Below are positions 4,248-19,031 of a stretch of 64,000 nucleotides of DNA, one piece after another. The notes beneath the pieces are model-generated. The model was not told where the DNA came from. It did not search any database and was given only the letters and a program-made list of their open reading frames with translations. The stretch spans positions 1,736,001-1,800,000 of the forward strand of contig JAYMNP010000001.1 in the NCBI GenBank assembly GCA_036941025.1, read 5' to 3'. The translations under genes were made by a program, and so were the position numbers. Numbering within the stretch: position 1 is the first letter of the stretch; each line of letters opens with the position of its first letter. The DNA comes from Lachnospiraceae bacterium JLR.KK002 (GTDB taxonomy: Bacteria; Bacillota; Clostridia; Lachnospirales; Lachnospiraceae).

Positions 4248-4454
4248 TCAGCCAACCTTATGAAAACACACTGTCTGTTCTTTCATGGATATCTTCCCGA
4301 CCTGCCAGCCATATTCTGCAAGTTCTTTCTTATATTTCAGAAATGAATGGTCAATCGGTATCCCCGCGATCTCCTGAATCTCCTCAAAGGTCAGCTGAAA
4401 TGATTCCTTTCCGCTTTTCTGCACATATTCCCATAATGCGTTGTATTTACTCAT
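4248..4454 (-). CDS. Small DUF7662-like protein
   Basis: A 68-residue soluble protein. Its YNALWEYVQKSGKE opening and SFQLTFEEIQEIAGIPID centre resemble the small domain found in many bacterial proteins in which an LWEYL-like start is followed by a SFxEIExIxG segment (DUF7662 in current databases, as far as I recall). The start at 4454 is preferred over the ATG at 4460 because GGAG is only one base from the first ATG. Function unknown. Confidence 0.6.
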   Translation of the reverse strand: MSKYNALWEYVQKSGKESFQLTFEEIQEIAGIPIDHSFLKYKKELAEYGWQVGKISMKEQTVCFHKVG

Positions 4455-4483
4455 TACCATTCTCCTCTCTAATAATTACAAAA

Positions 4484-4660
4484 TTACAAAACCTGAAAAA
4501 GCACGGTTGTAAACATAATGATTCCTACCATAATGGCTGCTATGCCAAAGAAATAGCTTCTCTTGTTTCCATGTTTTCCGTCAACAATCCAAAACAGGCC
4601 GCGCAGTATAAGAAGCGCCCCTACAAAAATCGGAATAAATTTCTGAACAGCTTCTGTCAT
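4484..4660 (-). CDS. 58-residue membrane protein, coupled to upstream gene
   Basis: A small open frame found by reading the minus strand by hand. It starts MTEAVQKFIPIFVGALLIL and has two hydrophobic helices (about residues 8-25 and 38-55) joined by a short charged loop containing DGKHGNKR. Its ATG overlaps the stop of the preceding gene as ATGA, and GGGGAAAAGGA lies directly upstream, so translation is probably coupled. Function unknown; it may act with the membrane protein encoded just before it. Confidence 0.7.
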   Translation of the reverse strand: MTEAVQKFIPIFVGALLILRGLFWIVDGKHGNKRSYFFGIAAIMVGIIMFTTVLFQVL

Positions 4661-5067
4661 TCCTTTTCCCCTTTCTGCCCTCTCTTTTTCTTAAAAATAT
4701 AAATGACAGTATTGATGATACATAACAGCACAAAAAGACTCGTAAAGTTAATCCAGATATCCCTGTATGCTGTTTTCGCCAAGGGTTCCCGCAATCCGCT
4801 GAACCAGACATAGGCAAACGCCAACAGCTGAGAGGGAATATATGCAATCAAATATCTGAGAGCCAATGGCTTAACAGGCAGATTCGTGCATAGTTCAAAT
4901 GCCGCTATCCCGATCAGGAGAATGATAGCCCTGTCTAATTCGTGCCAGTTACCGCTTGGGTCTTCATAGACGCCGTTACAAAGATACAAAACGCTGCTTA
5001 ACAATGTAATTGCTGTATATATCACCGAATAAATCGACACCATACGAATTAATTTTTTCTTATTCAT
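4657..5067 (-). CDS. Four-helix membrane protein of unknown function (DUF6608-like)
   Basis: A 136-residue protein with four predicted membrane helices (about residues 8-28, 44-62, 70-90 and 107-127) and a lysine-rich C-terminus. The layout resembles the DUF6608 membrane proteins of Firmicutes, but this is from memory and uncertain. The start has GGAAAGGAAA upstream. Its stop overlaps the next start (ATGA), giving a two-gene membrane-protein unit. No catalytic motif is visible. Confidence 0.6.
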   Translation of the reverse strand: MNKKKLIRMVSIYSVIYTAITLLSSVLYLCNGVYEDPSGNWHELDRAIILLIGIAAFELCTNLPVKPLALRYLIAYIPSQLLAFAYVWFSGLREPLAKTAYRDIWINFTSLFVLLCIINTVIYIFKKKRGQKGEKE

Positions 5068-5107: not shown

Positions 5108-5611
5108 CTATACCGAAACAGAAAGGTTCGTACCGGATTCCGGTTTCAATGCTTCTCCGGTTTTCGTATAGATTACAGGCTCTGTCTTAACAGCATCCGC
5201 TGTTTCTTCGATAGATACGCCATTGTCTGCACCAGTCTGAACCGAATCCGTCTTCTTGTCCAATGCGGCCTTTCCACTTTCACTGATGCTTACGGTATCT
5301 GTATCCTCATTCCGGCTTTCCGCTATCCTCTTTTCCTGCTCCTCGCGCTCTTCCTTGCGCTTCCTGATGGCATTTTCCTGCTCCATCTTCGCTTTTTCCT
5401 TCGCTTCCTTTGCGTCCTCCTTCATTCCTTTTTCTGCTTTCTTTTGATAGTCCTCTGCCTTCTCTGCAAAGTCCCCGACATACCCCATCGCCCGCTCCAT
5501 AACGGCTGTATCGCCTCTCCGCTCTGCGTCTTTATAGACACGGAAGGGGGTATTCAGTAACTTCATATTCGTACTTGCCCCTGCAAGACCTTCCATTGTT
5601 TTCGTATGCAT
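5108..5611 (-). CDS. Charged coiled-coil protein of unknown function
   Basis: A 167-residue hydrophilic protein without signal peptide or membrane helix. Residues 45-105 are a long Lys/Glu-rich coiled coil. A DTVSISESGKAAL segment follows, then a low-complexity acidic tail rich in Thr, Glu and Val. The start at 5611 has TAGGAGGG upstream; the longer frame has no such site. It lies downstream of a second coiled-coil gene (5827-6387) and of the LytTR/GHKL signalling pair. I do not recognise a named family. A role in scaffolding or as a modulator of the adjacent system is only a guess. Confidence 0.65.
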   Translation of the reverse strand: MHTKTMEGLAGASTNMKLLNTPFRVYKDAERRGDTAVMERAMGYVGDFAEKAEDYQKKAEKGMKEDAKEAKEKAKMEQENAIRKRKEEREEQEKRIAESRNEDTDTVSISESGKAALDKKTDSVQTGADNGVSIEETADAVKTEPVIYTKTGEALKPESGTNLSVSV

Positions 5612-5752
5612 AATTGTCCCTCCTAAATTTTTCCTGATATAATCCTTTCCAGGAAACCCATACAATAGAATCCACGCTTTGCGAGTCTTCTACAATAAAA
5701 TCTAAAAGAAGATTTTATTTTAATGTATTACCATGAAAGATGCCGCCATTCC

Positions 5753-5796
5753 AAAAATACCGGAAAACAGTGCGCATTTGCCACCATCTTCCGGTA
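5753..5796 (-). terminator. Probable terminator after the 5827-6387 gene
   Basis: TACCGGAA (5758-5765) pairs with TTCCGGTA (5789-5796); read on the minus strand the stem is followed by a T run (TATTTTTGG). It separates the two coiled-coil genes. Confidence 0.55.
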
Positions 5797-5826
5797 CTGA
5801 TACCACACTAAAAACTTAAGTCTCTT

Positions 5827-6387
5827 TTATTCTGATACAGAAGCATTCTGCCGCCTGTATGTATCATTGTCCTTCTGGCTTAACTCGTTTTCTACCTGCG
5901 CCAGCTTTTTCTCCAGCTCCCGGATTTTCTTTTCATCTCCGGAAGCAGACTGGATCTGCTGTTCCAGCTGCTGCTTTTTCTCTTTCAGCTTCTTGATCTC
6001 CCTGTCAACCTTATCCGTATTTGTGATACATTTCTCCGCCGGCTTTCCCTGGCTGTCTCCGCTTACCTTCGGTGCTTTGCCATCTTCGCTTTTCTCGGAA
6101 CGGCCATCCTGTTCCTTTGCATGGCCAGCTTTCGGGTCATCAAAAAAGATCTTCCGGTTTCCGTTCTCGTCCTGGCCTACCCGGTACAGTCCCGTAGGCT
6201 TTTGCCCCGATTTTTCACTGCTGATGTACTCGTCCTTTGGTTCGGACAGCCTGCCGGAGTTTTTCTCCTCTGCAGCTTTCTCTGCCTCCTTTGCCTTTTC
6301 CGCCCTCTCGGCGGTCATTTTTTCCTTCACCTGCTCTGCGTAGTCGGCGCCGGAATGATCATAATTTCCATGAATCTGCATTGCCAT
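5827..6387 (-). CDS. Coiled-coil protein with central GLYRVGQDENG motif
   Basis: A 186-residue soluble, highly charged protein. Residues 15-45 are Lys/Glu/Ala-rich. A central block, KDEYISSEKSG ... GLYRVGQDENGNRKIFFDD, is the only part with folded-domain character. Residues 125-175 form a leucine-heptad coiled coil. There is no signal peptide. The start at 6387 is chosen because AAGGAGG sits 9 bases upstream. The frame stays open for 60 codons before this start, but that part has no ribosome site. It lies immediately downstream of the GHKL kinase. Function unknown; together with the gene at 5108-5611 it may be an accessory part of the signalling/transport module. Confidence 0.7.
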   Translation of the reverse strand: MAMQIHGNYDHSGADYAEQVKEKMTAERAEKAKEAEKAAEEKNSGRLSEPKDEYISSEKSGQKPTGLYRVGQDENGNRKIFFDDPKAGHAKEQDGRSEKSEDGKAPKVSGDSQGKPAEKCITNTDKVDREIKKLKEKKQQLEQQIQSASGDEKKIRELEKKLAQVENELSQKDNDTYRRQNASVSE

Positions 6388-6450
6388 TAGCGTGTTCCTC
6401 CTTTCACATGGTAACGGCACGCGCCGCATAGCGGCACCTGCCAACTCGTC

Positions 6451-6487
6451 GGAAGGCATTAATAAAAATGCTTCGCATTTGCCTTCC
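6451..6487 (-). terminator. Nested hairpin after the GHKL kinase gene
   Basis: An outer stem GGAAGGCA/TGCCTTCC (6451-6458 with 6480-6487) encloses an inner stem AAATGC-GAA-GCATTT (6466-6480) that on the minus strand continues into TTATT. It probably ends transcription of the kinase operon or reduces read-through into the coiled-coil gene. Confidence 0.5.
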
Positions 6488-6571
6488 TCCTTCAAATTGA
6501 TATTGTCAGATATCTTCCTTAAGTTGACTGGCATCTTCCTTTTTCTTTTTTCGGCTGTAGAAAGCAGCATT

Positions 6572-7900
6572 TTAATCCATTTGCTGTGTGCTGCTTTCTG
6601 GATGCTGTGGAATGATCAGCAGCACATGGAGGACAAATACATGCCCCTGTGTCTCTATACTCATGGCGCCTCCATATTTTTCAGCCACCTTTTTTACATT
6701 CGACAGACCTGTCCCTTTTTTGAACGCGCTTTTCCCATGGAAGCTGTTCTGAATTTCCATCATAAGGAAATCCCCCTGGATCCGCCCGGACACACGGATA
6801 TACTTTTCTATGCCGGCACCCAGTTTTTTTACTGCATGGATTGCATTATCCAGTGCATTTGACAGGACAATACAGATATCAATATCCCGGATGCCACAGG
6901 GGTATGGCAGAAGGAGGGAACAGTCCACATCGATCCCCATGCTTTTTGCAATCCCCAGTTTGTTCCCCACCAGAATATCCACTACCGGATTATTGGTACT
7001 GCAGGGGAATGACATTTTTTCCGCCATATCGTCCAGATCCTCCATATAGGTTATGGCTTCCTCCAGTTTCCCATTCTGCAGGAGCTTTTTTACCACTGCG
7101 ATGTGGTTTCTGATGTCATGGCGGAAGGACTTTGTCTCATCGTAACGGGTTTTCGCTTCCTCCACATACTGGTTCAAGGAATGTTCCTGCTGTTCCAGCA
7201 GTGAAATTTCAGTGTTTAAACAAAAACTCTGCTGCAGTTTCTTATAGGAAAACAGGATGCAGAACAGACCGGCAAGCCCTAAAAGATGCAGGGCAAGCAA
7301 CTGCCAGTGGTTAAGCAGATACTCAAAAGGTCCGTCTTCCGCCAGGATTTTAATCTGGAATTCAAATTCTACCATATTGATGTACTCGCTCATAATGAAT
7401 ATCATCAAAATGGGGATGAAAACCAGAAACATTTGCTGCATTTCCACTGTAGTATAGTCGGAAAAATAACGGTACATCATATAATAACAAAAAACGGTCA
7501 GGGCCAGTGACACCGCTTCACTGGTCAGCATGAATGCGATACCTGCCGTATCAGGGAAAACAGTAGGCAAAAGCGGGCATAAAAGGCTGATCAGGGATTT
7601 CGCAATTCCATAGCATAGCTGCATGATCTCAGTCGTCAGAGCCGCATACAGAAGGGAAGACTTAAAATCCCCATGGCAGACAAAAATCCCATATGCTGTA
7701 AGCAGAAATACAAACACCACAAATCTGATTATCATGCCTGTCGCAAGAAAATGATCGACAATCACTGCACCTACTGCAAACAGGAAATAAAAAGGAGGCC
7801 ACATTTTCTTTTTCAAAATTTTTGCCAGGAAATAAAACTGGAAGGACATCTCGACAGCGCCCATTATATATACATTAAAAAAATCTAAATACTCAGCCAT
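6572..7900 (-). CDS. GHKL-domain sensor histidine kinase (AgrC/HPK10 type)
   Basis: A 442-residue kinase. The first 215 residues hold about six membrane helices, as in peptide-sensing AgrC/ComD kinases. A coiled-coil linker leads to FRHDIRNHIAVVKKLL (phospho-acceptor His), then NALDNAIHAVKKL (N box) and GTGLSNVKKVAEKYGG (G box) of a HATPase_c_5/GHKL domain. It follows the LytTR response regulator by about 28 bases and must be its partner. The ATG at 7900 is preferred; an in-frame ATG at 7915 has a poorer ribosome site. No agrB/agrD-like peptide gene lies beside it, so the signal is unknown; the adjacent transporter operon suggests a peptide antibiotic or secreted peptide. Confidence 0.85.
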   Translation of the reverse strand: MAEYLDFFNVYIMGAVEMSFQFYFLAKILKKKMWPPFYFLFAVGAVIVDHFLATGMIIRFVVFVFLLTAYGIFVCHGDFKSSLLYAALTTEIMQLCYGIAKSLISLLCPLLPTVFPDTAGIAFMLTSEAVSLALTVFCYYMMYRYFSDYTTVEMQQMFLVFIPILMIFIMSEYINMVEFEFQIKILAEDGPFEYLLNHWQLLALHLLGLAGLFCILFSYKKLQQSFCLNTEISLLEQQEHSLNQYVEEAKTRYDETKSFRHDIRNHIAVVKKLLQNGKLEEAITYMEDLDDMAEKMSFPCSTNNPVVDILVGNKLGIAKSMGIDVDCSLLLPYPCGIRDIDICIVLSNALDNAIHAVKKLGAGIEKYIRVSGRIQGDFLMMEIQNSFHGKSAFKKGTGLSNVKKVAEKYGGAMSIETQGHVFVLHVLLIIPQHPESSTQQMD

Positions 7901-7928
7901 GCTACCTGCCCCCATATGTAAAAAAACC

Positions 7929-8633
7929 TTACATATTCTTCATATACTGCAGAACAACACTGGAAAACTCCTTACTCCGCAGCCGTGATACGGGAACCTC
8001 TTTGCCGTTATCCATACAGGCAGTCCCGTTTTTATATCCTTTTAAATGCTTCAGGTTGATGAGATAGCTCCTGTGGCACCGGAAAAAATGGCTGCCCAGC
8101 TTCGTTTCCAGATTTTCGATCCGCTCATAATAATCAACAACCTCGCCGGAAGCCAGGTTCAGATATATTTTCCGGTCTATGATCTCGCAGAAAACAATCT
8201 CCTCCTCCCGGATAATGCGCCCCTCATATCCCTTTTGCACCAGCAGGCTGTCTTCGCTGGCATTTTGCATGGAAGTGTAAAGGCGCTCCATCGTCTTTTC
8301 AAACTGTTTTTCCTCCACCGGCTTGACCAGATAATCGTAAGGCTCTACCTCGAAAGACTGAAACACCATCTCTTTCAGTACCGTGATAAAGATCAGGAAT
8401 CCCCGGAACTTAGAATCCCTCAGCTTCCTTGCCGTTTCTATGCCGTCCATGCCCTTCATCTGGATGTCCAGAAACAGGATGTCGATCTGCCCGTCGTAGC
8501 TTAGCAGCTCTTCGCCACTTGAAAATGTCCGAAGCTGAATCTCCCTGTACTTTTTACGGAAAAAATCGGAGGCCATTGCCCTTATATGATCGGACATGTG
8601 TTTTTCATCATCACAGATTGCAATACGGATCAA
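7929..8633 (-). CDS. LytTR response regulator (AgrA/ComE type)
   Basis: A 234-residue regulator: an N-terminal receiver domain (acidic pair CDDEKH, phospho-acceptor in DILFLDIQMKGMDG, Lys in YDYLVKP) and a C-terminal LytTR DNA-binding domain (residues 135-230, with FFRCHRSYLINLKHL). The start codon appears to be TTG at 8633, with GAGGAGG 7 bases upstream; no ATG fits. The gene forms a pair with the downstream GHKL kinase. Upstream are two 15-bp direct repeats with 21-bp spacing, as expected for a LytTR dimer site, so it may regulate itself. Confidence 0.85.
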   Translation of the reverse strand: MIRIAICDDEKHMSDHIRAMASDFFRKKYREIQLRTFSSGEELLSYDGQIDILFLDIQMKGMDGIETARKLRDSKFRGFLIFITVLKEMVFQSFEVEPYDYLVKPVEEKQFEKTMERLYTSMQNASEDSLLVQKGYEGRIIREEEIVFCEIIDRKIYLNLASGEVVDYYERIENLETKLGSHFFRCHRSYLINLKHLKGYKNGTACMDNGKEVPVSRLRSKEFSSVVLQYMKNM

Positions 8634-8659
8634 TGCGCCACCTCCTCGCCATTATTCGT

Positions 8660-8688
8660 CAACGGCAAAAGAAAAACTTTTGCCGTTG
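8660..8688. promoter_or_regulatory. Perfect 11-bp palindrome in the leader of the LytTR regulator
   Basis: CAACGGCAAAA (8660-8670) pairs perfectly with TTTTGCCGTTG (8678-8688) around a 7-base loop. It lies between the predicted promoter and the TTG start of the regulator gene and has no T run after it on the minus strand. It could be a leader hairpin, a repressor site, or the 3' end hairpin of the permease transcript. Confidence 0.5.
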
Positions 8689-8705
8689 TCATAGACTGAC
8701 ATTTT

Positions 8706-8777
8706 ATGATAACCTGTCCGAAATGCCAAAACAATTTAATTGCTGTGAAATGTTTATCTGTTGCCGCGAAATGCTTA
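8706..8777 (-). promoter_or_regulatory. Predicted promoter and LytTR-type direct repeats
   Basis: On the minus strand TTGTTT (8729-8734), a 17-base spacer and TATCAT (8706-8711) form a fair sigma-A promoter. Seven bases upstream of the -35 box begin two direct repeats, TGCTGTGAAATGTTTA (8741-8756) and TGCCGCGAAATGCTTA (8762-8777), exactly 21 bp apart. This spacing is typical of LytTR dimers. The outer repeat overlaps the stop codon of the upstream permease. Confidence 0.55.
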
Positions 8778-11147
8778 ACTTTGCGCCCTTATCTGCTCAA
8801 CCAGGGATTGCTTTTTCTGCCTGCGCACCATCCATACAGACAGGACCACCTCCATGCCAAACAGCACCATGAGGAACAGCCCCATTTGCAGGAACGGGAA
8901 CTGGTATGGGACAACTGCGCCGGCAAAGGATTTCTTACTGACTGACCCACAGACTGCCATGGAAATCGGCAGCCCCAGGATTAAAACAGTAAGCACCGCA
9001 AAAAGCGCATGGCACATCCCCTCGGTGATACTCATCCGGCACAGCTGCTTCCCGGTCAGGCCAACGGAGCGCAGGATACTGTTCTCCCGCTTTCTAGACA
9101 TCTGGTTGGAAAGCGTCGTATTGATCAGGTTGACAACGCCGAACAGGAAGATCAGCCAGGAAAGAGCCTGCAGGCTTCCAAAAATAATGCTGCTCTGCAT
9201 TTTCTCATATTCGATATGTGCGTCTATCGTATCCATTCCAAGATTGCTGCGGCCTGATACCAGCTCCTTAAGCCTGCTTTCCACAAACTCTGCTTTTTGG
9301 GGATCATTCACAATACTCCAGGAGTAGTCAAAGCTTCCGATTTCAGGATGTATCTCATGAAACAACTCCTCTGGTGCGAACAGGGCTGCCGAATCCATGG
9401 CAAGCGCACCATGTCCGTTTGCTGCCTTCGACGCATCGAACAGTCCGGATATGGTAACTGTCACGGTTTTCTGGCCCAGGGTCAGCTCCATGGCGGCCCC
9501 GACATCCATATCGGCATGGTGCTTTTGATAACCCGTACTCAAAAGGACGCTGTGGGTATCCGCCGGCATGGCGCCTGATACCAGCGCAGCTTCTACATCC
9601 ATGCAGTTTGCGTCCGTCAGCATGTCGCACATACCGGCTTCAGCACTTTCGGAAGTCCTAAATTTGCCGTGCAGAGACCGGCGGGTGGCCAGCACATCTG
9701 TCACCCCGTCCACAGAAAGGATCTCCTGCCGCAATTCCTCATTCAGCGGATTGCCTGCAGCCATAATCTCTTCCTCCGGCTGCTCTGAAGACAGATATAT
9801 CTTTATATCCCCGTCCGGGAAAAACAGCCTTGCAGCCTGCTCCGGCGAGCGTGTCAGAACCATGGAGGATACCACCAGAAGAAGGATCCCGCCCAGGCTC
9901 AGGGATACTGCAATGCTCACTGACTTCTTGCGGTCGCGCCCAAAATTTGCAAATCCCATGGATATGGGACTTAATTTCCGGTGTTTCTTTCTGTTGTGTA
10001 CCTTTTCCTGACCTGCGGAAAAACGCATTGCCTCCAACGGTGAAATATTGGCAGCTATTTTGACCGGTCTGTGAACTGATATGGATACCATGAACCAGCA
10101 GACCATCACGGTCAGAAGTACGGCTACCCCATAATAACCTCCATGGAAACCTTTGGGAAACAGGAGCAGGCCGCCGCCCACACCCAGCAGGACACCCATC
10201 AGGATTCCAATACCGCCCAGCCGACCGCTCTCCTTTTTCACGATGCGCCGGATCTGTCTGGGTGTTGCGCCAATGGTGCGGAGCTGTCCATAGCTTTGTA
10301 TTTTATCGTTCACAGAGATACGGAAAATACTCTGGATGACTACATATCCGCCGGCAAGCACAAGGGCGGCTATACCAAAAACAGTCACAAAGTCAATAGA
10401 CTTTGAGTTAGAAGCAAAATAATTGCTGTTCATCCCTACATGCGCAGAGCCAAACTGCGCGGCAATCTCCCGGCAACGGGCAGCCATGGTCTCCTGGTCA
10501 AACTGCCTGTCATTTTTGAAATGCACATAGGCACGGTATCCTGCAGGGTCAAATCCGGCCCACTGCGTCAAGGCCGCTTTGGAAACGGCAATGGCACATA
10601 GATTCGCTTCCTTTTCTCCCACATTAGACAGGATTCCGGTCACGGTATAGTCGCCATGAAAGCTCTCGGTATCCAACCGGACCGTCTCACCGATTTTGGC
10701 ATTGGAACCGTAAGCGGAGAGAAAATATTCGCTGACCGCGACTTCATTCGCCTTTGCCGGGAGTTCTCCTTTTACCAGCTCCATCTGGCTGCGGGCAATA
10801 TACACCATATCGCTGTCGCAGTACACATAGGATGCATTGTATCCCTGCTCCGAATGCTCCTGCCCCAGTAAATAGTATTCACCCACGCGGGCAAGCTCCG
10901 GAAGGTCTTTCAGCGCCGCCACATGGTCCGTCTCCACGCCGGTGAAGACCGCCTCATAGGTGTCGGCCACCTGATTACGCTGGATCTGCACAATCGAAAC
11001 GGATATCACCGCTGACAAGCAAACCAGGAACGCCGCCAGGGCGACGGCAATTACCACCATCCGGTTCCGGCGCTTTTCGCTTGCCAGGCTGCGCTTTGCA
11101 AGTTTTTTCACAATGGCGCTTGTATCATTTTCAAAAGGCCATGTCAT
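8775..11147 (-). CDS. FtsX-type ABC permease, third of three
   Basis: A 790-residue permease with two FtsX-like halves. After the cytoplasmic start MTWPFENDTSAIVKKL there is a membrane helix (about 31-52), an outer domain (55-250), three helices (252-357), a cytoplasmic link, a helix (410-432), a second outer domain (435-650) and three final helices. LRTIGATPRQIRRIV and RSVGLTGKQL are the coupling-region motifs seen in MacB/FtsX permeases. It follows the second permease by 12 bases with GGAGG before the ATG. It shares one upstream ATPase with two sister permeases. Such systems commonly move or respond to peptides and envelope lipids; the substrate here is not known. Confidence 0.85.
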   Translation of the reverse strand: MTWPFENDTSAIVKKLAKRSLASEKRRNRMVVIAVALAAFLVCLSAVISVSIVQIQRNQVADTYEAVFTGVETDHVAALKDLPELARVGEYYLLGQEHSEQGYNASYVYCDSDMVYIARSQMELVKGELPAKANEVAVSEYFLSAYGSNAKIGETVRLDTESFHGDYTVTGILSNVGEKEANLCAIAVSKAALTQWAGFDPAGYRAYVHFKNDRQFDQETMAARCREIAAQFGSAHVGMNSNYFASNSKSIDFVTVFGIAALVLAGGYVVIQSIFRISVNDKIQSYGQLRTIGATPRQIRRIVKKESGRLGGIGILMGVLLGVGGGLLLFPKGFHGGYYGVAVLLTVMVCWFMVSISVHRPVKIAANISPLEAMRFSAGQEKVHNRKKHRKLSPISMGFANFGRDRKKSVSIAVSLSLGGILLLVVSSMVLTRSPEQAARLFFPDGDIKIYLSSEQPEEEIMAAGNPLNEELRQEILSVDGVTDVLATRRSLHGKFRTSESAEAGMCDMLTDANCMDVEAALVSGAMPADTHSVLLSTGYQKHHADMDVGAAMELTLGQKTVTVTISGLFDASKAANGHGALAMDSAALFAPEELFHEIHPEIGSFDYSWSIVNDPQKAEFVESRLKELVSGRSNLGMDTIDAHIEYEKMQSSIIFGSLQALSWLIFLFGVVNLINTTLSNQMSRKRENSILRSVGLTGKQLCRMSITEGMCHALFAVLTVLILGLPISMAVCGSVSKKSFAGAVVPYQFPFLQMGLFLMVLFGMEVVLSVWMVRRQKKQSLVEQIRAQS

Positions 11148-11159
11148 GTCCTACACCTC

Positions 11160-13535
11160 CTATTCCGTCACACGAAGCTGCTCTACGACACTATTTTTTC
11201 TGCAATATCGGCCAGCCCATTTTGTAAGGGCCAATTGAAGCATAAAAACTAACAGGACATATAAGAAAACCGGTATTACAGGAAAAGTATAATTTACGAA
11301 GCTGAATCCAGGCACATTCCCTATGGCAGAGCATATTGCTTTTCCAATTCCCAGACCACAGATAAGGGAAGCGGCAAAACTGCCAACCGTTTGAAATGCA
11401 TTTTCAAATCCTATCATATGATAAAGCTGTCTGTGGCTTAAGCCAACCGCCCGGAACAATCCCATTTCTTTCCTTCTGGAAATGATATTTGTCATACTGG
11501 TATTGACCAGGTTGATAATACTAAATATGACAATGACCGCTAACAGCGCATATGCCGCAATGGAAATTGTGCTGAACACGCTTTTGTATTGCATCGTCAT
11601 ATCTTTTAATGTTTTAAGGCGCAAAGTATCGCTTGCCAAAACCAATGAATGTAATTCATCCTCAATTCCAGCATAACTGTCTGTCTTTGCCCGGATCACA
11701 AACGCACTGCTTGCATTATAGGGAACCATCTGTTCCATTTCACCTGCCGGAAGGATAAAGCTGACAGATCTGTCCCTGTCAAAAACAATCGCAGATACGG
11801 TATAAGTAAGGCTGTTTCCTGCCTGTGAAAAAGTGACGGTATCGCCCACCTCATAGCTCTTATGCAGGTATTCTAATTCCGGACTGCCCATGTTAATGAT
11901 AAGGGAGTTTTCCCCTGTATGGTCATAACCCGGCAATTCCCCGATCATTATCTTGTTCTTTAATTCCTTATAATCCTCTGTGTTCATACTCCGGATTGCC
12001 GTTTCCATTCCATCTATCCCGACGCATATCTCCTGCTGGCAGATAATTTCATCTACCCCGTCAATTGACAAAATATCATTTTTCAATTCATCTGTCAGTA
12101 GATTGTTTTCCTGCAGCTGAGTGAGGGAAAACGTAGGCGTGACCAGCGCCCGGTTCAATTCCACCACATAACTTCCCTCATAAGGGAAGGCCTGTTTCGC
12201 CCTTTGCTCAGGATCAAGGGAGGATAGCAGGGAAGAAATCCCTATAAACATCATTCCGCTCAAAGCCAGTGAAATAAAGGTCAATATACTTTTCTTCCTG
12301 TTACGGAACAGGTTCATAGCCGCAAGTGAAAACGGCGTAAGATGCTTCCCGCTCTTTTTCCTCTTTTTTGTTCCGCTATAACCGCTATAATGGAATGCTT
12401 CCACAGGTGAAACTGACATGGCAATCTTTGCCGGTTTTAAAACAGACAGCCTTACACAAATAAATACAGCGATTCCTGATAAAAATGCAATCACAATATC
12501 TGGAAGCAGCTGAAAAGCACTCCGGTCTATCAAAAAAGATAACATCGCGCCTGCCATACATCCAAACGGAATGAAATGAAGCGCAAGATAGTTTCCTTCC
12601 CGTGAAATAATCTGTCTGATTTGCTTCTTCGTAGTACCAATCGTGCGCAGCTGCCCAAAGGAAGCTACATTATTTATAACCGAAATGTAAAATATATTGT
12701 AGACAACCAGGGAACATACACCGATTAAGACCAACCCAACGAGCAAAACCGTCAGTACCGTCTCTTTTGACATGTTATTGCTGTCAATGTATAAATTATT
12801 TACCTGAATATTGTCTGCAGAGATCCCACAATCCAAGCCAATCGTCCGTATCAGCTCTTTTAATTCCTGATTGGTATATTTTGCAGTATCATGGACAGAA
12901 ACCATAGCTGCCACCGGCCCAGTGGAAAGAGCAGGGTTTTCCCACACAAAATTCTGTGAAACAATAGCGTTATAAGCAACCCTGTCCCTGTCATTCTCAG
13001 CGGTTGTCTGAATAAAACCTGTAATCCGGAAATCTTTAGTTTCTAACTGACGGCTTGCCTGATTGCGATAATGAAGGGATATTGTGTCGCCGATCCCCGC
13101 TTTTAGAGTCAGGGCATCTATATATCCCCTTTCCACGAGCAATTCATCCGCTGCCTGGGGCATACGTCCTTCCAACAGTGTGATGTTGGAGAGCTGCATG
13201 GTTGTTTCATCAGAACATACCATACCCATTGTGATGCCATTTACCTGTTCCGTCATGCCGACAGACTGATATACACCCACTTTTTGAATATGGGGATCTT
13301 CTTTCAGCAAAGAGATATTCTCCTGTGAAAGGTTTTGGAAAATTCCCTGATATGCAGTTGATGCCGCATATTCATTTGTAATGTTATATGCATAAGAAGA
13401 AACAAACGCCATAATGGCTGCCGCCATAAAGATAATGATCCCAATCAGACGATTCCTGAAACGGTTCTGTCCAATACGGGCATTTGATAACCTATGGGTA
13501 ACAGCGCTGGTATCATTTTCAAAAGGCCATGTCAT
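11160..13535 (-). CDS. FtsX-type ABC permease, second of three
   Basis: A 791-residue sister of the flanking permeases with the same start (MTWPFENDTSAVTHRL), the same order of helices and outer domains, and the motifs LRTIGTTKKQIRQII and RAVGLSHRQLYHMI. The outer domains differ strongly from the sisters in sequence, so the three genes are old, diverged duplicates, not recent copies. AAGGAGG precedes the start. The gene lies 19 bases after the first permease in the same operon. Confidence 0.85.
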   Translation of the reverse strand: MTWPFENDTSAVTHRLSNARIGQNRFRNRLIGIIIFMAAAIMAFVSSYAYNITNEYAASTAYQGIFQNLSQENISLLKEDPHIQKVGVYQSVGMTEQVNGITMGMVCSDETTMQLSNITLLEGRMPQAADELLVERGYIDALTLKAGIGDTISLHYRNQASRQLETKDFRITGFIQTTAENDRDRVAYNAIVSQNFVWENPALSTGPVAAMVSVHDTAKYTNQELKELIRTIGLDCGISADNIQVNNLYIDSNNMSKETVLTVLLVGLVLIGVCSLVVYNIFYISVINNVASFGQLRTIGTTKKQIRQIISREGNYLALHFIPFGCMAGAMLSFLIDRSAFQLLPDIVIAFLSGIAVFICVRLSVLKPAKIAMSVSPVEAFHYSGYSGTKKRKKSGKHLTPFSLAAMNLFRNRKKSILTFISLALSGMMFIGISSLLSSLDPEQRAKQAFPYEGSYVVELNRALVTPTFSLTQLQENNLLTDELKNDILSIDGVDEIICQQEICVGIDGMETAIRSMNTEDYKELKNKIMIGELPGYDHTGENSLIINMGSPELEYLHKSYEVGDTVTFSQAGNSLTYTVSAIVFDRDRSVSFILPAGEMEQMVPYNASSAFVIRAKTDSYAGIEDELHSLVLASDTLRLKTLKDMTMQYKSVFSTISIAAYALLAVIVIFSIINLVNTSMTNIISRRKEMGLFRAVGLSHRQLYHMIGFENAFQTVGSFAASLICGLGIGKAICSAIGNVPGFSFVNYTFPVIPVFLYVLLVFMLQLALTKWAGRYCRKNSVVEQLRVTE

Positions 13536-13554
13536 GGTACGCCACCTCCTTCTA

Positions 13555-15942
13555 TTATCGCAAAGCTTCCATCATGGATGACTTGCTTTGCTGCTTTAAG
13601 GCCCCTGTTGTAATCAGCACACTACATAAAATAATAACCGCACAATTCAGGATTGTAATACCCAATGGAAATTGATAATTCAAATAGCTCATCAGGCTGT
13701 TTTTCAAAAATGAGCAAAGAACATATCCAATCCCTCCGCCAATGATCACAGATAATACAAGTCCCATGCCGACTACGATCAGTCCCTCTTTATGGACCAT
13801 CACGGATAATTGTTTTTGGGACATTCCCACGGAACGCATGAGGGAAAATTCCCTGCGCCTTACGATAATTCCCGTCAAAGTTGTATTCAACAGATTCATC
13901 ACGGAAAAACAGCCAATCAAAACAATGGCTATTGCAAGGGCGAACTGTGTCCCCTGCAGGAAGTTTTCATTCTGGGCAATGGCAGCAGAAAGGGAATCCA
14001 CACTCAGCCGCGGGTTATCGGATACAATCTGGTCTATTTCGTTTTCTGCCTGCTGTTCCAAAGAATCCTCTACACGGATCACATACTGATATGTCAGATT
14101 GCTGTGTGCGATTTTCTGCATGGAATCAACCGGCAATAACAGCATATCTATTTTATCGCCATGATTTCCAATCTTACTTTCGTCAAGGACTGCCGTAATC
14201 TCAAATTCCAGGTTCTCCGTATGCTGCCCATCAAAAATCTTCAGCATTACAGAGGAGCCGACTTTTGGATAAATGCCAAAATACTTCTCAAAGTCATTCG
14301 GCCTGCCAATCACCATCTGATCCTCAGATGCCATTTGCCCATAATCTGACAGGTTTCCATTTAAGAGACAGCTTTGCAGCAAATCCATATCTGCTTTCTC
14401 AAATCCCACGATTTCAGCATCTGATTCCAGGGCCTGCAGGTCATAGGAAACCGGGAGATGCTGGTCGTTCATGATCTTTTGCACACCTGGTAATTGCGAG
14501 AGTTCTTTTTCCACTTCCTCCGTAAAAGGGCTTGATCCCTGCAGAATCTCCAAAGGATTTTCCATCAGCTCCTGATTCGAGATCTTTAAAACGAACTGTC
14601 CTCTTGCAAATCCGGATAAAGACATATCTTCTGCATTGATCGAAGAAAGGACAGAGGATAAGCCTAACAGCAGGACGCCAGTCAGGACAAGGGAGGCGGC
14701 TGTCAGTATATTCTTTTTCTTATAACGCAAAACCTGGTTGACTGCCAAAGACCCCGGCGTCAGCCTGTGCTGCCTATGTTTACCTTTCGGCCCCTTATTT
14801 TGTTCATAGCGGGAAGCCTCTATGGGTGAAACGGCTGCAGCTATTTTCGCAGGCTTTTTGATGGACAGGCGCACAGTGGCATAGGTCAACGCAACAACAA
14901 CCGGGCATATCCATAGCACATTCCATAACCCAAATCCATGTGGAATTAAAAGATAAGCCGCTGCAATTCCCGCAATCAGTCCAATCGGAATTGCAGGCAG
15001 CATCAGCAAAGTCCCCTCCCTGAGAACAAGCCTTTGAATCTGTTTTGCTGTCATCCCTATTGTGCGGAGCTGTCCATATTCTTTAATGGAATTGATGATG
15101 GAAATATAAAAAATGTTGTATATTACCAAAACACCAGCGATCACGATCACAACCAGCCCGGCAATAGCCGCCAGAACCATCCATGCCGAAGGCTGGCTAA
15201 GATTCAGATACGCTTCATTATAAGAAGGAGCCGCTTTACAGCCTGCATCAGCCGCTATCTGCGATATTAAGCTTTTTACATCCCCAGAGCCCGCATCTAA
15301 ATTTACACGGAGCATGACTGCCGGTGAAAAGTGATCCCATCCATCCATTTCTGAGAAGTATTCTTCAGAAACCATAGCCGCATATAAGGAACGGTCAGTG
15401 CCTTTCGCCCCTGTCTTCAGGTATCCTGTTATAAGAAAGGATTTTTCCTGGCCGTTGTTTGGGTCTGGCAGCCGGATGGTATCTCCAATTTTAGCATTTA
15501 TCTTCTGCCGGATTAAATATTCCTGTTCAATCAGGATCTCATTCGCTTTCTCCGGCATTTTTCCCTCAGAAACAGACAGCCCATTTAATGTAAGTGCATC
15601 CTTGTTGCAATACGAAATATTAAGGCGGTCATTTCCGGATTTCACGCTGCCAATGGACGCTGTGAATCCGCATAGATCCACCCGCACATCATCAGACAAT
15701 TTCTGATATTGTTCTTTTTCTATGCCGGAAATAAGCGCATGATAAGACCCCGTTATGTTATTGCCGCCATTTTGGTTCACTGTAATAATTCCAGAAACCA
15801 GGAGCAATACGGATGCCATCAAAAATGTTGCCAATGAAATTGCAGTAACCGTAAAAATTTTCTTCAAACGCTCTTTCTTTAATTGAGCAGTCGCTAATTT
15901 TTTAATGATAGCGCTGGTATCATTCTCAAAAGGCCATGTCAT
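13555..15942 (-). CDS. FtsX-type ABC permease, first of three
   Basis: A 795-residue permease beginning MTWPFENDTSAIIKKLA. Helices and outer domains follow the same pattern as in its two sisters. The coupling motifs are LRTIGMTAKQIQRLV (about residue 295) and RSVGMSQKQLSVMV (about residue 705). It directly follows the ATPase gene (14 bases) with AAGGAGG upstream, so it is the first permease to be translated. With the ATPase it would make a complete MacB/YbbA-YbbP-like transporter. How the other two permeases share the ATPase, as homodimers or heterodimers, cannot be told from sequence. Confidence 0.85.
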   Translation of the reverse strand: MTWPFENDTSAIIKKLATAQLKKERLKKIFTVTAISLATFLMASVLLLVSGIITVNQNGGNNITGSYHALISGIEKEQYQKLSDDVRVDLCGFTASIGSVKSGNDRLNISYCNKDALTLNGLSVSEGKMPEKANEILIEQEYLIRQKINAKIGDTIRLPDPNNGQEKSFLITGYLKTGAKGTDRSLYAAMVSEEYFSEMDGWDHFSPAVMLRVNLDAGSGDVKSLISQIAADAGCKAAPSYNEAYLNLSQPSAWMVLAAIAGLVVIVIAGVLVIYNIFYISIINSIKEYGQLRTIGMTAKQIQRLVLREGTLLMLPAIPIGLIAGIAAAYLLIPHGFGLWNVLWICPVVVALTYATVRLSIKKPAKIAAAVSPIEASRYEQNKGPKGKHRQHRLTPGSLAVNQVLRYKKKNILTAASLVLTGVLLLGLSSVLSSINAEDMSLSGFARGQFVLKISNQELMENPLEILQGSSPFTEEVEKELSQLPGVQKIMNDQHLPVSYDLQALESDAEIVGFEKADMDLLQSCLLNGNLSDYGQMASEDQMVIGRPNDFEKYFGIYPKVGSSVMLKIFDGQHTENLEFEITAVLDESKIGNHGDKIDMLLLPVDSMQKIAHSNLTYQYVIRVEDSLEQQAENEIDQIVSDNPRLSVDSLSAAIAQNENFLQGTQFALAIAIVLIGCFSVMNLLNTTLTGIIVRRREFSLMRSVGMSQKQLSVMVHKEGLIVVGMGLVLSVIIGGGIGYVLCSFLKNSLMSYLNYQFPLGITILNCAVIILCSVLITTGALKQQSKSSMMEALR

Positions 15943-15956
15943 AGTCTGCCACCTCC

Positions 15957-16622
15957 TTACTCTACGATCCTGCCGTCCTCAATCCTTATGATCCGGTCAG
16001 CAAGCTGGGCAATCTCGTTATTATGGGTAATCATGACAATGGTCTGGTTAAACTCCATACTGGTACGCTTTAAAAGCCCCAGCACATCGGCGCTGGTCCT
16101 GGAATCCAGATTTCCGGTGGGCTCATCGGCCAGGATGATGGCCGGTTTGGTGATGAGAGCCCGGGCAATGGCGACACGCTGCTGCTGTCCGCCGGAAAGG
16201 TTATTCGGCATATTCTGCAGTTTATCTTCCAATGCCAGCATCCCCACGATCTCATCCATGAACTTCTTGTCTGCCGCATCTCCGTCCAGCTCCACAGGCA
16301 GGACAATGTTCTCATACACATTCAGAATCGGGACAAGGTTATAGTTCTGGAAGATGAAGCCGATGTTGCGGCGGCGGAAAATAGTCAGCTCCTCGTCATT
16401 CTTTTTTGCCAGCTCATCCCCACGGACAATCACATTGCCGGAAGTGGGCGTATCCAGCCCGCCCATCATGTTAAGCAGGGTGGATTTCCCACTGCCGGAC
16501 GTTCCGACAATCGCCACAAACTCACCCTGTTCCACAGAAAGGCTGACGCCATCCAGGGCGCGGGTAATGTTTGGCTCACTGCCATAGTACTTTTTCAGAT
16601 CGATTGTTTGTAATACATTCAT
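15957..16622 (-). CDS. ABC transporter ATPase, MacB/LolD type
   Basis: A 221-residue ATPase with Walker A GTSGSGKSTLL (about residue 40), Q loop IFQNYNLVP, signature LSGGQQQRVAIARAL, Walker B ILADEPTGNLDS and the H loop VMITHN. The length and the TGNLD motif place it in the LolD/MacB/YbbA group that partners FtsX-type permeases. The ATG at 16622 has AAGGAG 9 bases upstream; a TTG two codons earlier is less likely. It is the only ATPase gene for the three permeases that follow. Its promoter carries repeats shared with the OmpR-type regulator gene. Confidence 0.92.
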   Translation of the reverse strand: MNVLQTIDLKKYYGSEPNITRALDGVSLSVEQGEFVAIVGTSGSGKSTLLNMMGGLDTPTSGNVIVRGDELAKKNDEELTIFRRRNIGFIFQNYNLVPILNVYENIVLPVELDGDAADKKFMDEIVGMLALEDKLQNMPNNLSGGQQQRVAIARALITKPAIILADEPTGNLDSRTSADVLGLLKRTSMEFNQTIVMITHNNEIAQLADRIIRIEDGRIVE

Positions 16623-16717
16623 AATCAAATGCTCCTTTCCTTATCTCTGTCCTGTTTTTCAGGACATACAGGTATACCCTTGTGGTGTTTCAAGGCTTTC
16701 TGCCTGTTGATAAGGAC

Positions 16718-16778
16718 ATTATAAAATCCAAATGTCACAGAAATGTCCGAAGCGGCATAAAAAATGCGGCTGAAATGT
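16718..16778 (-). promoter_or_regulatory. Transporter promoter with four phased regulator half-sites
   Basis: On the minus strand the -10 box is TATAAT (16718-16723). No good -35 box exists; instead direct repeats read on the plus strand as AAATGT occur at 16730 and 16741 (11 bp apart), and a weaker pair AAATGC/AAATGT occurs at 16762 and 16773 (again 11 bp apart, 21 bp from the first pair). All lie on one face of the helix. The first pair stands exactly 6 bases from the -10 box, as in the regulator promoter at 18548-18576. This is typical of activation by an OmpR-type regulator. Confidence 0.65.
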
Positions 16779-16803
16779 TACAAGACTCGGACATTTCAAA
16801 AAA

Positions 16804-17835
16804 TTATCTTGTAGGGAGCATAATGGAAAATTCCGAACCCCTGTCCGGCTCCGAAACCACTTTGATATAGCCGCCCTGCCTCGTTACGATCTCGCGGGTC
16901 AGATACAGGCCGATGCCCACGCCCTGCTGTTCGTGTACTTCTTCCTCACGATAAAAGCGCCGGAAAATAGCGGCCTGATTACTCTCCGGGATACCCTTGC
17001 CGGTATCGGACACACTAAGCTTTACATACATTTCCCATTGCTCTACTGAAATTCGGATGGCTCCTCCGGCCGGGGTATATTTCACTGCATTGTCCAGCAG
17101 GTTGAACACGGCTTCCGCCGTCCACTTGCTGTCATGGGAAAGGATGAGATCCTCCGGACAGTCCACCGTTACGGATATATTCTTTTTCTCCGCCGCATAT
17201 ACGATGCCGCTTAAGGCCATCGCCAACGTATCGATCAGCGGGGCGTCTTTCTTTTCCAGTCTGATCGCCCCGGTTTCCAGGCGTGAGGTTTTCACAAGAG
17301 CCTGAAAAAGGAACTCCAGCTTGTCCGTCTGATTCCGGATGCCTTTCAGGAACTCCAGCTGTTCTTCCTCTGTGACCGGCTTTGAAAGCAGCGTGTCCGT
17401 CACCATTTTCAGATTTGCCACCGGTGTTTTTACCTGATGGGAAACATCTGACACCAGCATCTGCAGCTCCTGCCGTTCCTCATCCACCTTCCGCCGGTTC
17501 TCCTGCATGATCCCATACAGCCGGGTCAGACGGTAGCTGATACGGGCAAAGAGTGTTTCACTGTCCCCGGCGCGCACAGGCTCTCCGCTTCCGCTTATCA
17601 TCTGGTCCATTGCCCGGCAGAGCTCCCTGGTAAATATGGAAAGCCGTTTGCTGAAAGCAGCCGTCAGAAGGAACATCCATGCAAGGGCGCAGAGCATCAG
17701 TAATATACCGACAATCAGCATCCATATCTGTCCTGTCACCACAAAGAAAACCGCGCAGATGGCCAGCATGGAAACTACCATACCGCCGCTAAGCAACAGG
17801 AATATCCTTTTTACAGAGATTCGCCCCGGATTCAT
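16804..17835 (-). CDS. Intramembrane-sensing histidine kinase
   Basis: A 343-residue kinase. Two membrane helices at about residues 8-30 and 33-55 are separated by only a few residues (TGQIW), so there is no outer sensor domain; such kinases (BceS, LiaS types) usually sense through a membrane partner, often an ABC permease. DVSHQVKTPVANLK holds the phospho-acceptor His. NLLDNAVKYTP (N box), DTGKGIP and GIGLYLTREIV complete the ATPase domain. The start at 17835 overlaps the regulator stop as ATGA and has GGGAGG upstream. The adjacent three-permease transporter is the natural candidate for a sensing partner. Confidence 0.88.
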   Translation of the reverse strand: MNPGRISVKRIFLLLSGGMVVSMLAICAVFFVVTGQIWMLIVGILLMLCALAWMFLLTAAFSKRLSIFTRELCRAMDQMISGSGEPVRAGDSETLFARISYRLTRLYGIMQENRRKVDEERQELQMLVSDVSHQVKTPVANLKMVTDTLLSKPVTEEEQLEFLKGIRNQTDKLEFLFQALVKTSRLETGAIRLEKKDAPLIDTLAMALSGIVYAAEKKNISVTVDCPEDLILSHDSKWTAEAVFNLLDNAVKYTPAGGAIRISVEQWEMYVKLSVSDTGKGIPESNQAAIFRRFYREEEVHEQQGVGIGLYLTREIVTRQGGYIKVVSEPDRGSEFSIMLPTR

Positions 17836-18521
17836 TTTCTCTCGCCTCCCATCCACTGATACCCAATCCCGTAAATCGTTTTGATATAAGTATCGCCATC
17901 CGCCTCAATCTTGCCCCGGATACGGCTGATGGAGGTTGTCAGTGTGTGTTCGTCCACATAGTTTTCCTCCGCATCCCACAGCCGCTCCAGAAGGCGCTGC
18001 CTGGTCAGAATCTGTTTGGGGTTTTTGCAGAACAGGTACAGCATCTTATACTCCATGGGGGAAAGGGTAAGAGGCTTCCCATTCAACGAAGCTGTCTGTT
18101 CTGAAAAGTCCAGAAACAGCCTGCCATCATCATAGAAATCCTTTGCCAGCCCCCGGTGTTCCAGCATAGCGAACATGGCCCGTATTTTCCGCAGCAACGC
18201 CCCAATGGAAAAGGGCTTGGTAATATAATCCACAGCCCCCACTTCATACCCCCGGATCTGGTCGCTCTCCTGGTCGTTGGCAGTCAGGAAAATAACCAGC
18301 GTGTCAGGGTTCTCCGGCTTTATGAGCCTGCACAGGTCATAGCCGCTGCCATCCGGCAGGTTAATGTCCAGAAGTACCAGGTCATATTCCGTCTGCGCCA
18401 ATAACTCGGCGGCTGTGCCGGCATTCAGAGCTGATACGGTATCATAACCCTCAGAGATCAGGTTGTAAGTCAGCGTTTTATTTAAAAGGTCGTCATCCTC
18501 TACCAGCAAGATCTTTTTCAT
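17832..18521 (-). CDS. OmpR-family response regulator
   Basis: A 229-residue regulator: receiver domain with VEDDDLL, phospho-acceptor in DLVLLDINLPDGSG and Lys in DYITKPFS, then a winged-helix domain ending in RIRGKIEADGDTYIKTIYGIGYQW. The start at 18521 has AGAGGAG upstream; the frame extends 12 codons further without a ribosome site. It is translationally coupled to the kinase. Its own promoter and the transporter promoter share the same repeats, which points to self-activation and direct control of the transporter. Confidence 0.9.
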   Translation of the reverse strand: MKKILLVEDDDLLNKTLTYNLISEGYDTVSALNAGTAAELLAQTEYDLVLLDINLPDGSGYDLCRLIKPENPDTLVIFLTANDQESDQIRGYEVGAVDYITKPFSIGALLRKIRAMFAMLEHRGLAKDFYDDGRLFLDFSEQTASLNGKPLTLSPMEYKMLYLFCKNPKQILTRQRLLERLWDAEENYVDEHTLTTSISRIRGKIEADGDTYIKTIYGIGYQWMGGERK

Positions 18522-18547
18522 ATCCACACTCCTCTGCTTTTTTACAT

Positions 18548-18576
18548 AGTATAACAAGCAAATGTCCGCGAAATGT
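18548..18576 (-). promoter_or_regulatory. Promoter of the OmpR-type regulator with 11-bp repeats
   Basis: On the minus strand the -10 box is TATACT (18548-18553). Two direct repeats, read on the plus strand as AAATGT at 18560 and 18571, lie 6 and 17 bases from it. The arrangement matches the transporter promoter base for base in spacing. There is no consensus -35 box, so an activator is expected. Confidence 0.65.
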
Positions 18577-19031
18577 TACAGCGGGCAGATAATTGTGAAC
18601 CGATATATTCACAGACGAGATTGTCAGAATAACTGAGCTGTATATTTTTCATCTGCATTATTACCAACTCATAATTCCAGCAGGAACGGGACACCGCCCG
18701 TTCCCATATGAACTTTACATTTTCTACTTCTCATTATAACTATTTTTTCTGGAAGCACAACAAAGGATTTTATTCATACCGTCTGCGTATCTCCATCATT
18801 CTTACCACCGACGTTTCCGGATAGAATAACCCTTAGCTGCCTGATTTAGTTTATCAGTTAGATAAAAAACAGTATTTGCAGATGAATTCCTCTTTGAATA
18901 TTCCATAAAAACTCTGTTACTGCAGTTCTGAAATTGTATGTCTTCCTGCCATTGTGGCATCCGGCAAAGATATAACCCTTCTTCGTTGGATTCTCAGGCT
19001 TTTTGGCTTTGCCATCGAGCCACATAAACCT
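18577..19031. other. Non-coding junction with a repeat-domain remnant
   Basis: This stretch of more than 450 bases has no intact gene. It contains an 8-bp hairpin (GGAACGGG/CCCGTTCC at 18683-18704) and, near 18900-19025, a decayed protein fragment listed separately. It separates the accessory module from spoIVB. Confidence 0.6.
18870..19030 (-). pseudogene. Remnant of a Listeria-Bacteroides (InlB B-type) repeat
   Basis: The minus strand reads DGKAKKPENPTKKGYIFAGC followed by HNGRKTYNFRTAVTEF. The pattern P-x-x-P-T-K-K-G-Y-x-F-x-G and the later YNF-xx-xVT match the flg_new/Listeria-Bacteroides repeat found in large surface proteins of Firmicutes. The usual tryptophan after FxG is Cys here, and the last strand (ITLYAKW) is missing. 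No start, signal or wall anchor remains, so it is probably a leftover of a deleted surface-protein gene. Confidence 0.5.

Follow-up and report, generated by a model that had tools for sequence, protein, structure and literature searches.

We analysed a stretch of 64,000 nucleotides (the window) from Lachnospiraceae bacterium JLR.KK002 (GCA_036941025.1, JAYMNP010000001.1, positions 1,736,001-1,800,000), in which the minus strand carries ten consecutive open reading frames (ORFs) between 18.6 and 5.1 kb. We consider it moderately probable that they constitute two adjacent, separately controlled units: a self-inducing transporter unit (unit A: a response regulator (RR), a histidine kinase (HK), an ATP-binding cassette (ABC) ATPase and three permeases, P1-P3) and a signal-gated late-flagellar unit (unit B: LytTR-GHKL-CC1-CC2, CC1 and CC2 being proteins described earlier as coiled coils). 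The feature that appears to be new is a LytTR-type repeat with a sigma-28-type promoter at the end of the GHKL gene, before the CC genes. The locus is a case in which adjacency hints at one module and regulatory sites hint at two. An earlier note on this DNA had listed the same genes, in this order and on this strand, which the ORF list bears out, and Pfam agrees with its domain identities for the first eight genes (RR through GHKL).

The reading draws on gene order, recurrence, conserved DNA elements and the FliA, FlgM and flagellin genes of the host, from which we infer binding, transcription and protein role. In unit A, the intramembrane kinase and the OmpR-type RR would switch on their own genes, the ATPase and the tandem-MacB permeases, together acting as an envelope-sensing, self-inducing transporter operon. 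In unit B, the AgrC-like GHKL kinase would activate LytTR, which would bind 21-bp-period repeats 5' of its own operon, giving positive feedback, and also a diverged repeat in the last GHKL codons, immediately 5' of a sigma-28-type promoter that would drive CC1-CC2. With a LytTR repeat and a sigma-28-type promoter in front of them, the CC genes would need both inputs, an AND gate of a surface signal and active FliA that would place them in the late flagellar programme. The CC proteins would most likely act on, or be exported by, the flagellar system, and their role is the weakest step of the proposed mechanism.

In gut Lachnospiraceae, two-component systems are often found with orphan 'hypothetical' partners and are difficult to interpret, and the architecture of the junction promoter gives two unnamed protein families a testable class, namely late flagellar and signal-gated. 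As a tentative extension, which we would not expect to hold, LytTR-GHKL-CC may be a multi-copy, unnamed signalling class of flagellated gut Lachnospiraceae, in which each AgrC-like sensor would gate its own CC protein through a LytTR plus sigma-28 dual promoter in the end of the kinase gene, and the CC proteins would be FlgM-motif effectors exported through or tuning the flagellar apparatus. If true, these cassettes would tie cell-cell sensing to motility. Among the papers listed in literature searches on these subjects, judged partly by title, none describes the LytTR-GHKL-CC cassette. Flagellins of such bacteria have been studied as immune stimuli (PMC3720852), and a sensor wired into the sigma-28 programme would therefore be of interest.

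Recurrence of the two units among relatives

In total, 116 genomes, including that of the host (G000), were searched for GHKL, CC1, a permease and CC2, and the loci were fetched. A scan with the CC2 alignment named 185 loci, of which the best 80 were retained; 72 of these have at least 2.8 kb upstream. Upstream of CC2, GHKL was present in 64 and LytTR in 64 of these 72 loci, and both in 62. The GHKL, LytTR and CC2 distance matrices of 54 loci were correlated (Spearman 0.71-0.88, reached in 0 of 999 permutations), which shows co-inheritance, not contact. Permease matches of at least 50 bits anywhere in the stretch were found at only 28 of the 80 loci (24 of 42 in the window's clade and 4 of 38 others, the latter being the lower-identity loci L185, L193, L200 and L204). 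The co-occurrence that the earlier note had proposed to look for was found for LytTR/GHKL with the CC genes and only in part for the permeases.

A permease lay upstream of LytTR in 24 of 36 window-clade loci (15 in full, two cut by the locus edge and seven as fragments), from records named Eubacterium, Parablautia and others, and in none of 27 lower-identity paralogous loci; one locus was not judgeable. Eighteen genomes, the host's included, had a GHKL match of at least 44% identity, and the permease array stood beside GHKL in five of them (G000; G016, lacking P1; G014, with P3 only; G023; and G024, with four permeases) and as a remnant in one (G003, where only the end of P3 is left). Among the genomes without an array, the contigs of G001 and G020 end at or just upstream of LytTR. 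The earlier note had held that independent occurrence of the gene groups in most related genomes would speak against a single module, and such independence was seen in both directions at some loci: RR-HK-ATPase-permease units stand alone at L131, L132, L134 and L135, with no LytTR, GHKL or CC gene in the stretch, and LytTR-GHKL-CC2 is kept beside permease fragments at L137, L156, L168 and L170. Within the window's clade the two units are neighbours, B persisting while A decays.

The earlier note proposed that the genes form a single integrated module, two sensors and the permeases serving to detect and handle one peptide and the coiled-coil proteins being accessories. This proposal has to be weighed against these counts, and we regard it as unlikely. 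It is favoured by the adjacency, intact or remnant, in the window's clade, by the four lower-identity loci with a permease, and by a locus of another genus (G040, L090 2797-9849), where RR, HK, ATPase, a 750-aa permease, a short LytTR ORF, GHKL and CC1 are consecutive on one strand, with 94 (RR), 105 (HK), 243 (ATPase), 64 (permease) and 223 (GHKL) bits against the profiles. G002 has a similar transporter unit on the GHKL strand, at a distance of ~4.4 kb from that gene. Because of G040 and G002, the pairing of A and B may be of older origin or prone to recur. The transporter of G040 is, however, diverged: WPFENDTS is missing at the called start of the permease ORF. A search of the stretch for the unit A operator gave no site. 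A single module is also opposed by the separate operators in the window, the stand-alone unit A elsewhere, the presence of arrays in only 5 of 18 genomes and the decay of permeases while unit B is kept. Furthermore, permeases of this type abound, with up to 41 first-look candidates in a single genome, and a degree of proximity is to be expected on that ground.

As a separate observation, GHKL fragments are scattered in relatives (L119, L120, L133), and in two of these (G003:C39, L119; G020:C9, L120) a short GHKL tail is followed by a long CC1 match.

Control elements of unit B and the GHKL-CC junction

The AgrA-like LytTR RR (7929-8633; PF00072 and PF04397) and the AgrC-like GHKL sensor kinase (6572-7915; PF14501; five predicted N-terminal helices) lie, as do all features given below, on the minus strand. 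LytTR repeat pairs are usually spaced at a ~21-bp period. Upstream of lytTR, a putative operator of this type, CATTTCRCRGCAA-N8-CATTTCRCRGCAA (8740-8773, period 21), gave one window match with 0 mismatches and none in 100 shuffles. It recurs with at most five mismatches in 30 of 35 window-clade loci, permease-free loci included, and a period-21 repeat of another sequence was seen by inspection in many paralogues. A predicted SigA-type promoter of lytTR (TTGTTT-N17-TATCAT, 8706-8734) is aligned in relatives. The multi-helix GHKL kinase, the LytTR regulator and the period-21 direct repeats 5' of the regulator operon resemble AgrC/AgrA systems, in which AgrB and AgrD are the signal genes. In contrast to those systems, CC1 and CC2 stand here behind a sigma-28-type promoter in place of recognised agrB/agrD, none of which was recognised by eye among ORFs of at least 70 aa.

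Upstream of lytTR the window has no match to the unit A operator, and no cross-site between the two units was found in it. Control of unit B by the unit A RR was considered as well, since ACATTT-type half-sites look alike, but was rejected, as no period-11 pair occurs upstream of LytTR in the window.

A second LytTR-type repeat lies within the final GHKL codons (6581-6614). In 36 of 37 clade sequences it differs from the lytTR operator at no more than 5 of 26 positions, compared with none in 100 shuffle rounds and none among 324 segments inside the same genes, and third-base conservation at this repeat is the highest of 300 windows (26 non-redundant genes). In the paralogues, the half-site is found in 21 of 27 cases against a shuffle mean of 1.6 and a maximum of 7. 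Directly downstream of the repeat, most loci have TAA[A/C/T]-N15/16-[G/A][C/T]CGAAA[A/G]. The corresponding sigma-28-type promoter of the window, TAAA-N15-GCCGAAAA (6548-6574), overlaps the GHKL stop codon with its -35 and agrees with the sigma-28-type pattern TAAA-N15/16-[G/A]CCGATAA at 11 of 12 positions. The element precedes CC1 in the window and CC2 in paralogues.

Scored as matches of 12 to this pattern, 25 of the 36 clade loci and 12 of the 30 paralogue loci reached at least 10, compared with shuffle means of 0.8 and 1.3 and with 5 of 217 other gene ends. A score of at least 9 was reached by all 36 clade loci and by 26 of the 30 paralogue loci, against shuffle means of 7.3 and 7.9 and 30 of 217 other gene ends. 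GHKL genes with a CC gene 3' of them scored at least 10 in 38 of 77 cases and at least 9 in 68 of 77; those without one did so in 0 and 5 of 23 cases, respectively. In a strict scan covering 2.21 Mb of fetched loci, a set with overlaps and an excess of CC loci, 21 distinct sites were found, comprising 16 GHKL/CC junctions (one of them a decayed copy at L224), flgM, one flagellin gene and three others.

These counts also bear on the possibility that CC1 and CC2 are expressed by read-through from lytTR only, the element behind GHKL being an RNA-processing or translation signal instead of a sigma-28 promoter. The genes are close together and co-oriented, and the element differs from the -10 of the host at one fixed position, as this explanation would allow. 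Nevertheless, a TAAA-like box and CCGA are kept at near-fixed spacing in two divergent groups, none of the GHKL genes without CC scores 10, and most strict matches in the fetched loci fall at GHKL/CC junctions, at flgM or at a flagellin gene, which makes read-through alone quite unlikely. Additionally, four promoters are predicted in the array (5' of RR, ATPase, LytTR and CC1), so that a single transcript for all ten genes is unlikely.

Sigma-28 promoters that depend on an activator exist, such as the CRP-dependent promoters of E. coli aer and trg, where the activator site lies directly 5' of the sigma-28 promoter (PMC2859248). The arrangement described here is similar, except that a LytTR-type repeat replaces the CRP site and lies inside the upstream coding end. 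The -10 departs from the host's own consensus at one fixed position, with A where the host has T, as would befit an activator-dependent promoter.

Besides these elements, the lytTR leader contains a hairpin, CAACGGCAAAAG...CTTTTGCCGTTG (8660-8688), seen in the alignment of relatives, with apparent compensatory pairs in some of them (CAACGGC/GCCGTTG versus CAGCGGC/GCCGCTG); other relatives lack the hairpin. A LytTR-type repeat with 2 of 26 mismatches and TAAA-N16-GGCGAAAA were found upstream of a GT2 glycosyltransferase gene (L217 ~1501-1545; G000 C1:1706385-1706410), which is a possible further LytTR target. A further LytTR-site match, at L224, belongs to the decayed end of an additional GHKL/CC1 copy, and is for that reason not independent evidence. 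This GHKL-tail/CC1 remnant (L224 12301-13440, G000) lies directly 5' of a DUF6033 gene, for which a literature search listed no paper and which may have taken over its promoter.

Flagellar context and the CC proteins

The host genome encodes FliA (264 bits) and FlgM (71.6 bits) and has six flagellin matches. TAAA-N15-ACCGATAA occurs upstream of flgM and of one flagellin gene, whereas the remaining five flagellin genes score 8-10 of 12 in 280 nt, with 10 only at L263. Among relatives, a sigma-28-type promoter was present within 300 nt at 15 of 30 fetched flgM genes. The sigma-28 consensus is given as TAAA-N15-CCGATAT in general and as TAAA-N16-17-MCGATAa for Butyrivibrio fibrisolvens in PMC3720852, and this pair spans both spacings (15 and 16) found at the CC junctions. 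FliA was identified in 84 of the 116 genomes, and every one of the 25 genomes that match CC1 or CC2 is among them; G017 was excluded from the CC carriers, its match being the dispersed repeat described below. Additionally, a DUF6240 gene of 1035 aa in the host (L268 8261-11365), with a weak FliK-like match, has a sigma-28-like TAAA...ACCGAAAT 66 nt upstream.

CC1 is a charged protein of ~186 aa with a C-terminal coiled coil. Its ORF covers 5827-6570, and the gene probably starts at ~6387 (5827-6387) and not at the ORF start, because the first ~60 'residues' would cover the promoter, the leader and a dispersed repeat. This repeat (...MPSDELAGAAMRRVPLPCERRNTL...; window ~6400-6520) lies between the CC1 promoter and the CC1 start, and similar stretches are scattered in relatives, mostly G012 and G017. 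CC2 (ORF 5108-5665, listed as 5108-5611; 27 sequences aligned) is predicted to form helices at 3-32 and 35-101, a helical hairpin, followed by a disordered tail, at low confidence; its structure model (mean pLDDT 64.6, pTM 0.30) was judged too poor for a fold search. Pfam gave weak coiled-coil matches below cut-off for CC1 and none for CC2; neither has a family match above cut-off. The CC2 tail contains DTVSISESGK, and the pattern D-x-V-x-I-S-x-x-G-K/R is also found in FlgM of the host. This FlgM-like motif was present in 4 of 195 ORFs (FlgM, two CC2 and one ABC ATPase as read) from nine stretches that had been chosen partly as flagellar or CC-bearing.

The sigma-28-type promoter at the junction, the same promoter class at flgM and a flagellin gene, and the FlgM motif in CC2 suggest that CC1 and CC2 are probably late-flagellar proteins gated by a surface signal. 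The earlier idea that they are accessories of peptide handling fits less well, as they follow LytTR/GHKL and their promoter points to flagella. In promoter and motif, CC2 resembles FlgM and class III genes, but neither CC protein matched PF04316 (FlgM) at E 0.1. CC2 as a FlgM homologue was rejected: only 16 residues aligned, so the relation is a shared short motif and not a demonstrated homology.

Several observations weigh against the reading of two separately controlled units with late-flagellar CC genes. Regarding the pairing, GHKL is not near CC2 in 8 of the 72 loci, the gene order of G040 matches that of the window (pairing may exceed chance), and its GHKL-CC1 junction, which has two CATTTC boxes, shows no sigma-28 element by eye. 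At the DNA level, the GHKL-tail repeat of the window has 5 of 26 mismatches; the paralogues have a spacing of 16 and weaker scores, with 18 of 30 below 10 and shuffles reaching 9 in ~8 of 30; the CC -10, [G/A]CCGAAAA, differs from the host's own ACCGATAA; and five of the host's six flagellin genes have no perfect sigma-28 site within 280 nt. The CC2 profile aligned with 30 FlgM sequences over those 16 residues at a probability of 2%. FliA-CC co-occurrence is weak evidence, because all 28 same-genus genomes have FliA and only four CC carriers lie outside the genus. Finally, the patterns were picked after inspection, and the counts are non-independent because the sequences share descent.

That CC1 and CC2 are precursors of a peptide sensed by the GHKL kinase is very improbable and was rejected: their tight co-inheritance and correlated divergence with GHKL would fit, but the proteins are ~167-186 aa, charged and helical, conservation in CC2 extends over the N-terminal helices with no small hypervariable core by eye, and a signal peptide is not apparent by eye.

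Unit A and its permeases

Unit A begins with the OmpR-type RR (17832-18557; PF00072 and PF00486), which probably starts at MKKILLVEDDD (~18521), where a Shine-Dalgarno sequence and an ATG are seen. The HK (16804-17856; HisKA and HATPase_c) has two helices predicted by hydropathy (18-36 and 46-64) with a 9-residue loop between them, and the earlier label 'intramembrane kinase' therefore fits. The LolD/MacB-type ABC ATPase (15957-16628; PF00005) scored 217.8 bits against TIGR02211, under its cut-off. The permeases are tandem fusions: P1 (13555-15942; FtsX/MacB, with PF02687 and MacB_PCD twice each), P2 (11160-13535; FtsX, PF02687 twice) and P3 (8775-11147; FtsX, PF02687 twice). P2 and P3 share 28-31% identity with P1, yet the first 11 residues (MTWPFENDTSA) are common to all three, and the DNA pattern of this start has three genome-wide matches (at most two mismatches), every one at this locus. 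Among 58 distinct permeases from the fetched loci, the start WPFENDTS was found in 31, a variant in 16 and neither in 11; therefore, the motif marks a wider subfamily.

Two putative operators accompany these genes. The direct repeat AACATTTC-GCG-GACATTTG (18559-18577, period 11) lies upstream of RR, and a second copy with one mismatch (16729-16747) is found close 5' of a TATAAT -10 that precedes the ATPase gene. The repeat AACATTTC-N3-GACATTTG had two matches in the window against 0.08 expected and is aligned in relatives, and 12 of the 13 permease loci inspected, two of them overlapping, have a looser form, sometimes in multiple copies, L130 being the miss. By its gene content and repeats, unit A looks like a self-regulated ABC/two-component operon, and it may serve in envelope stress or peptide handling.

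The earlier note had likened the locus to BceRS-BceAB. In arrangement the likeness holds: an OmpR-type RR, an intramembrane kinase, a MacB-type ATPase and a large permease share one locus, and an operator precedes the transporter genes. In architecture it does not. By hydropathy, each of the three permeases has eight predicted helices (4+4) and two large outside segments, whereas BceB has ten helices and one outside domain (PMC5985334). The permease profile matched YtrF best among Protein Data Bank entries (47 bits), followed by MacB (25.9) and the BceB-type PsdB (18.5), and the predicted model of P3 (pTM 0.51) gave E. coli YbbP (9ge6) as the best Foldseek match (E 3.7e-17, TMq 0.52), compared with a TMq of ~0.30 for BceAB. 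Membership of unit A in BceAB is thus rejected on permease architecture; it resembles BceRS-BceAB in arrangement and is not a family member.

Two fused MacB-type units and two outside domains are also features of YbbP/ADOP (type VII ABC) transporters, and PF02687 twice per chain with the ATPase in a separate gene agrees with a duplicated MacB-type permease. YbbP, however, has two linking helices, ten in total (PMC12646458), which are not predicted here, and an RR/HK pair is encoded beside the permeases of unit A. The top NCBIfam match for all three permeases was TIGR03434, although curated cut-offs were not reached by TIGR03434 (43.4 versus 622.3 bits at best) or NF041854 (18.7 versus 999).

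PADLOC gave a weak PbeC match for CC1 and generic matches for the ATPase, and no match for CC2, LytTR, GHKL or permease P3. In many relatives, with permeases or not, CC2 is followed 3' by a DUF6608 membrane protein (window 4657-5067) and a 70-aa protein (4248-4460). In addition, four unit A operators occur in each of L127 and L129, stretches of 19-20 kb with several permease and ATPase genes, and these perhaps represent a distributed regulon of YbbP-like permeases.

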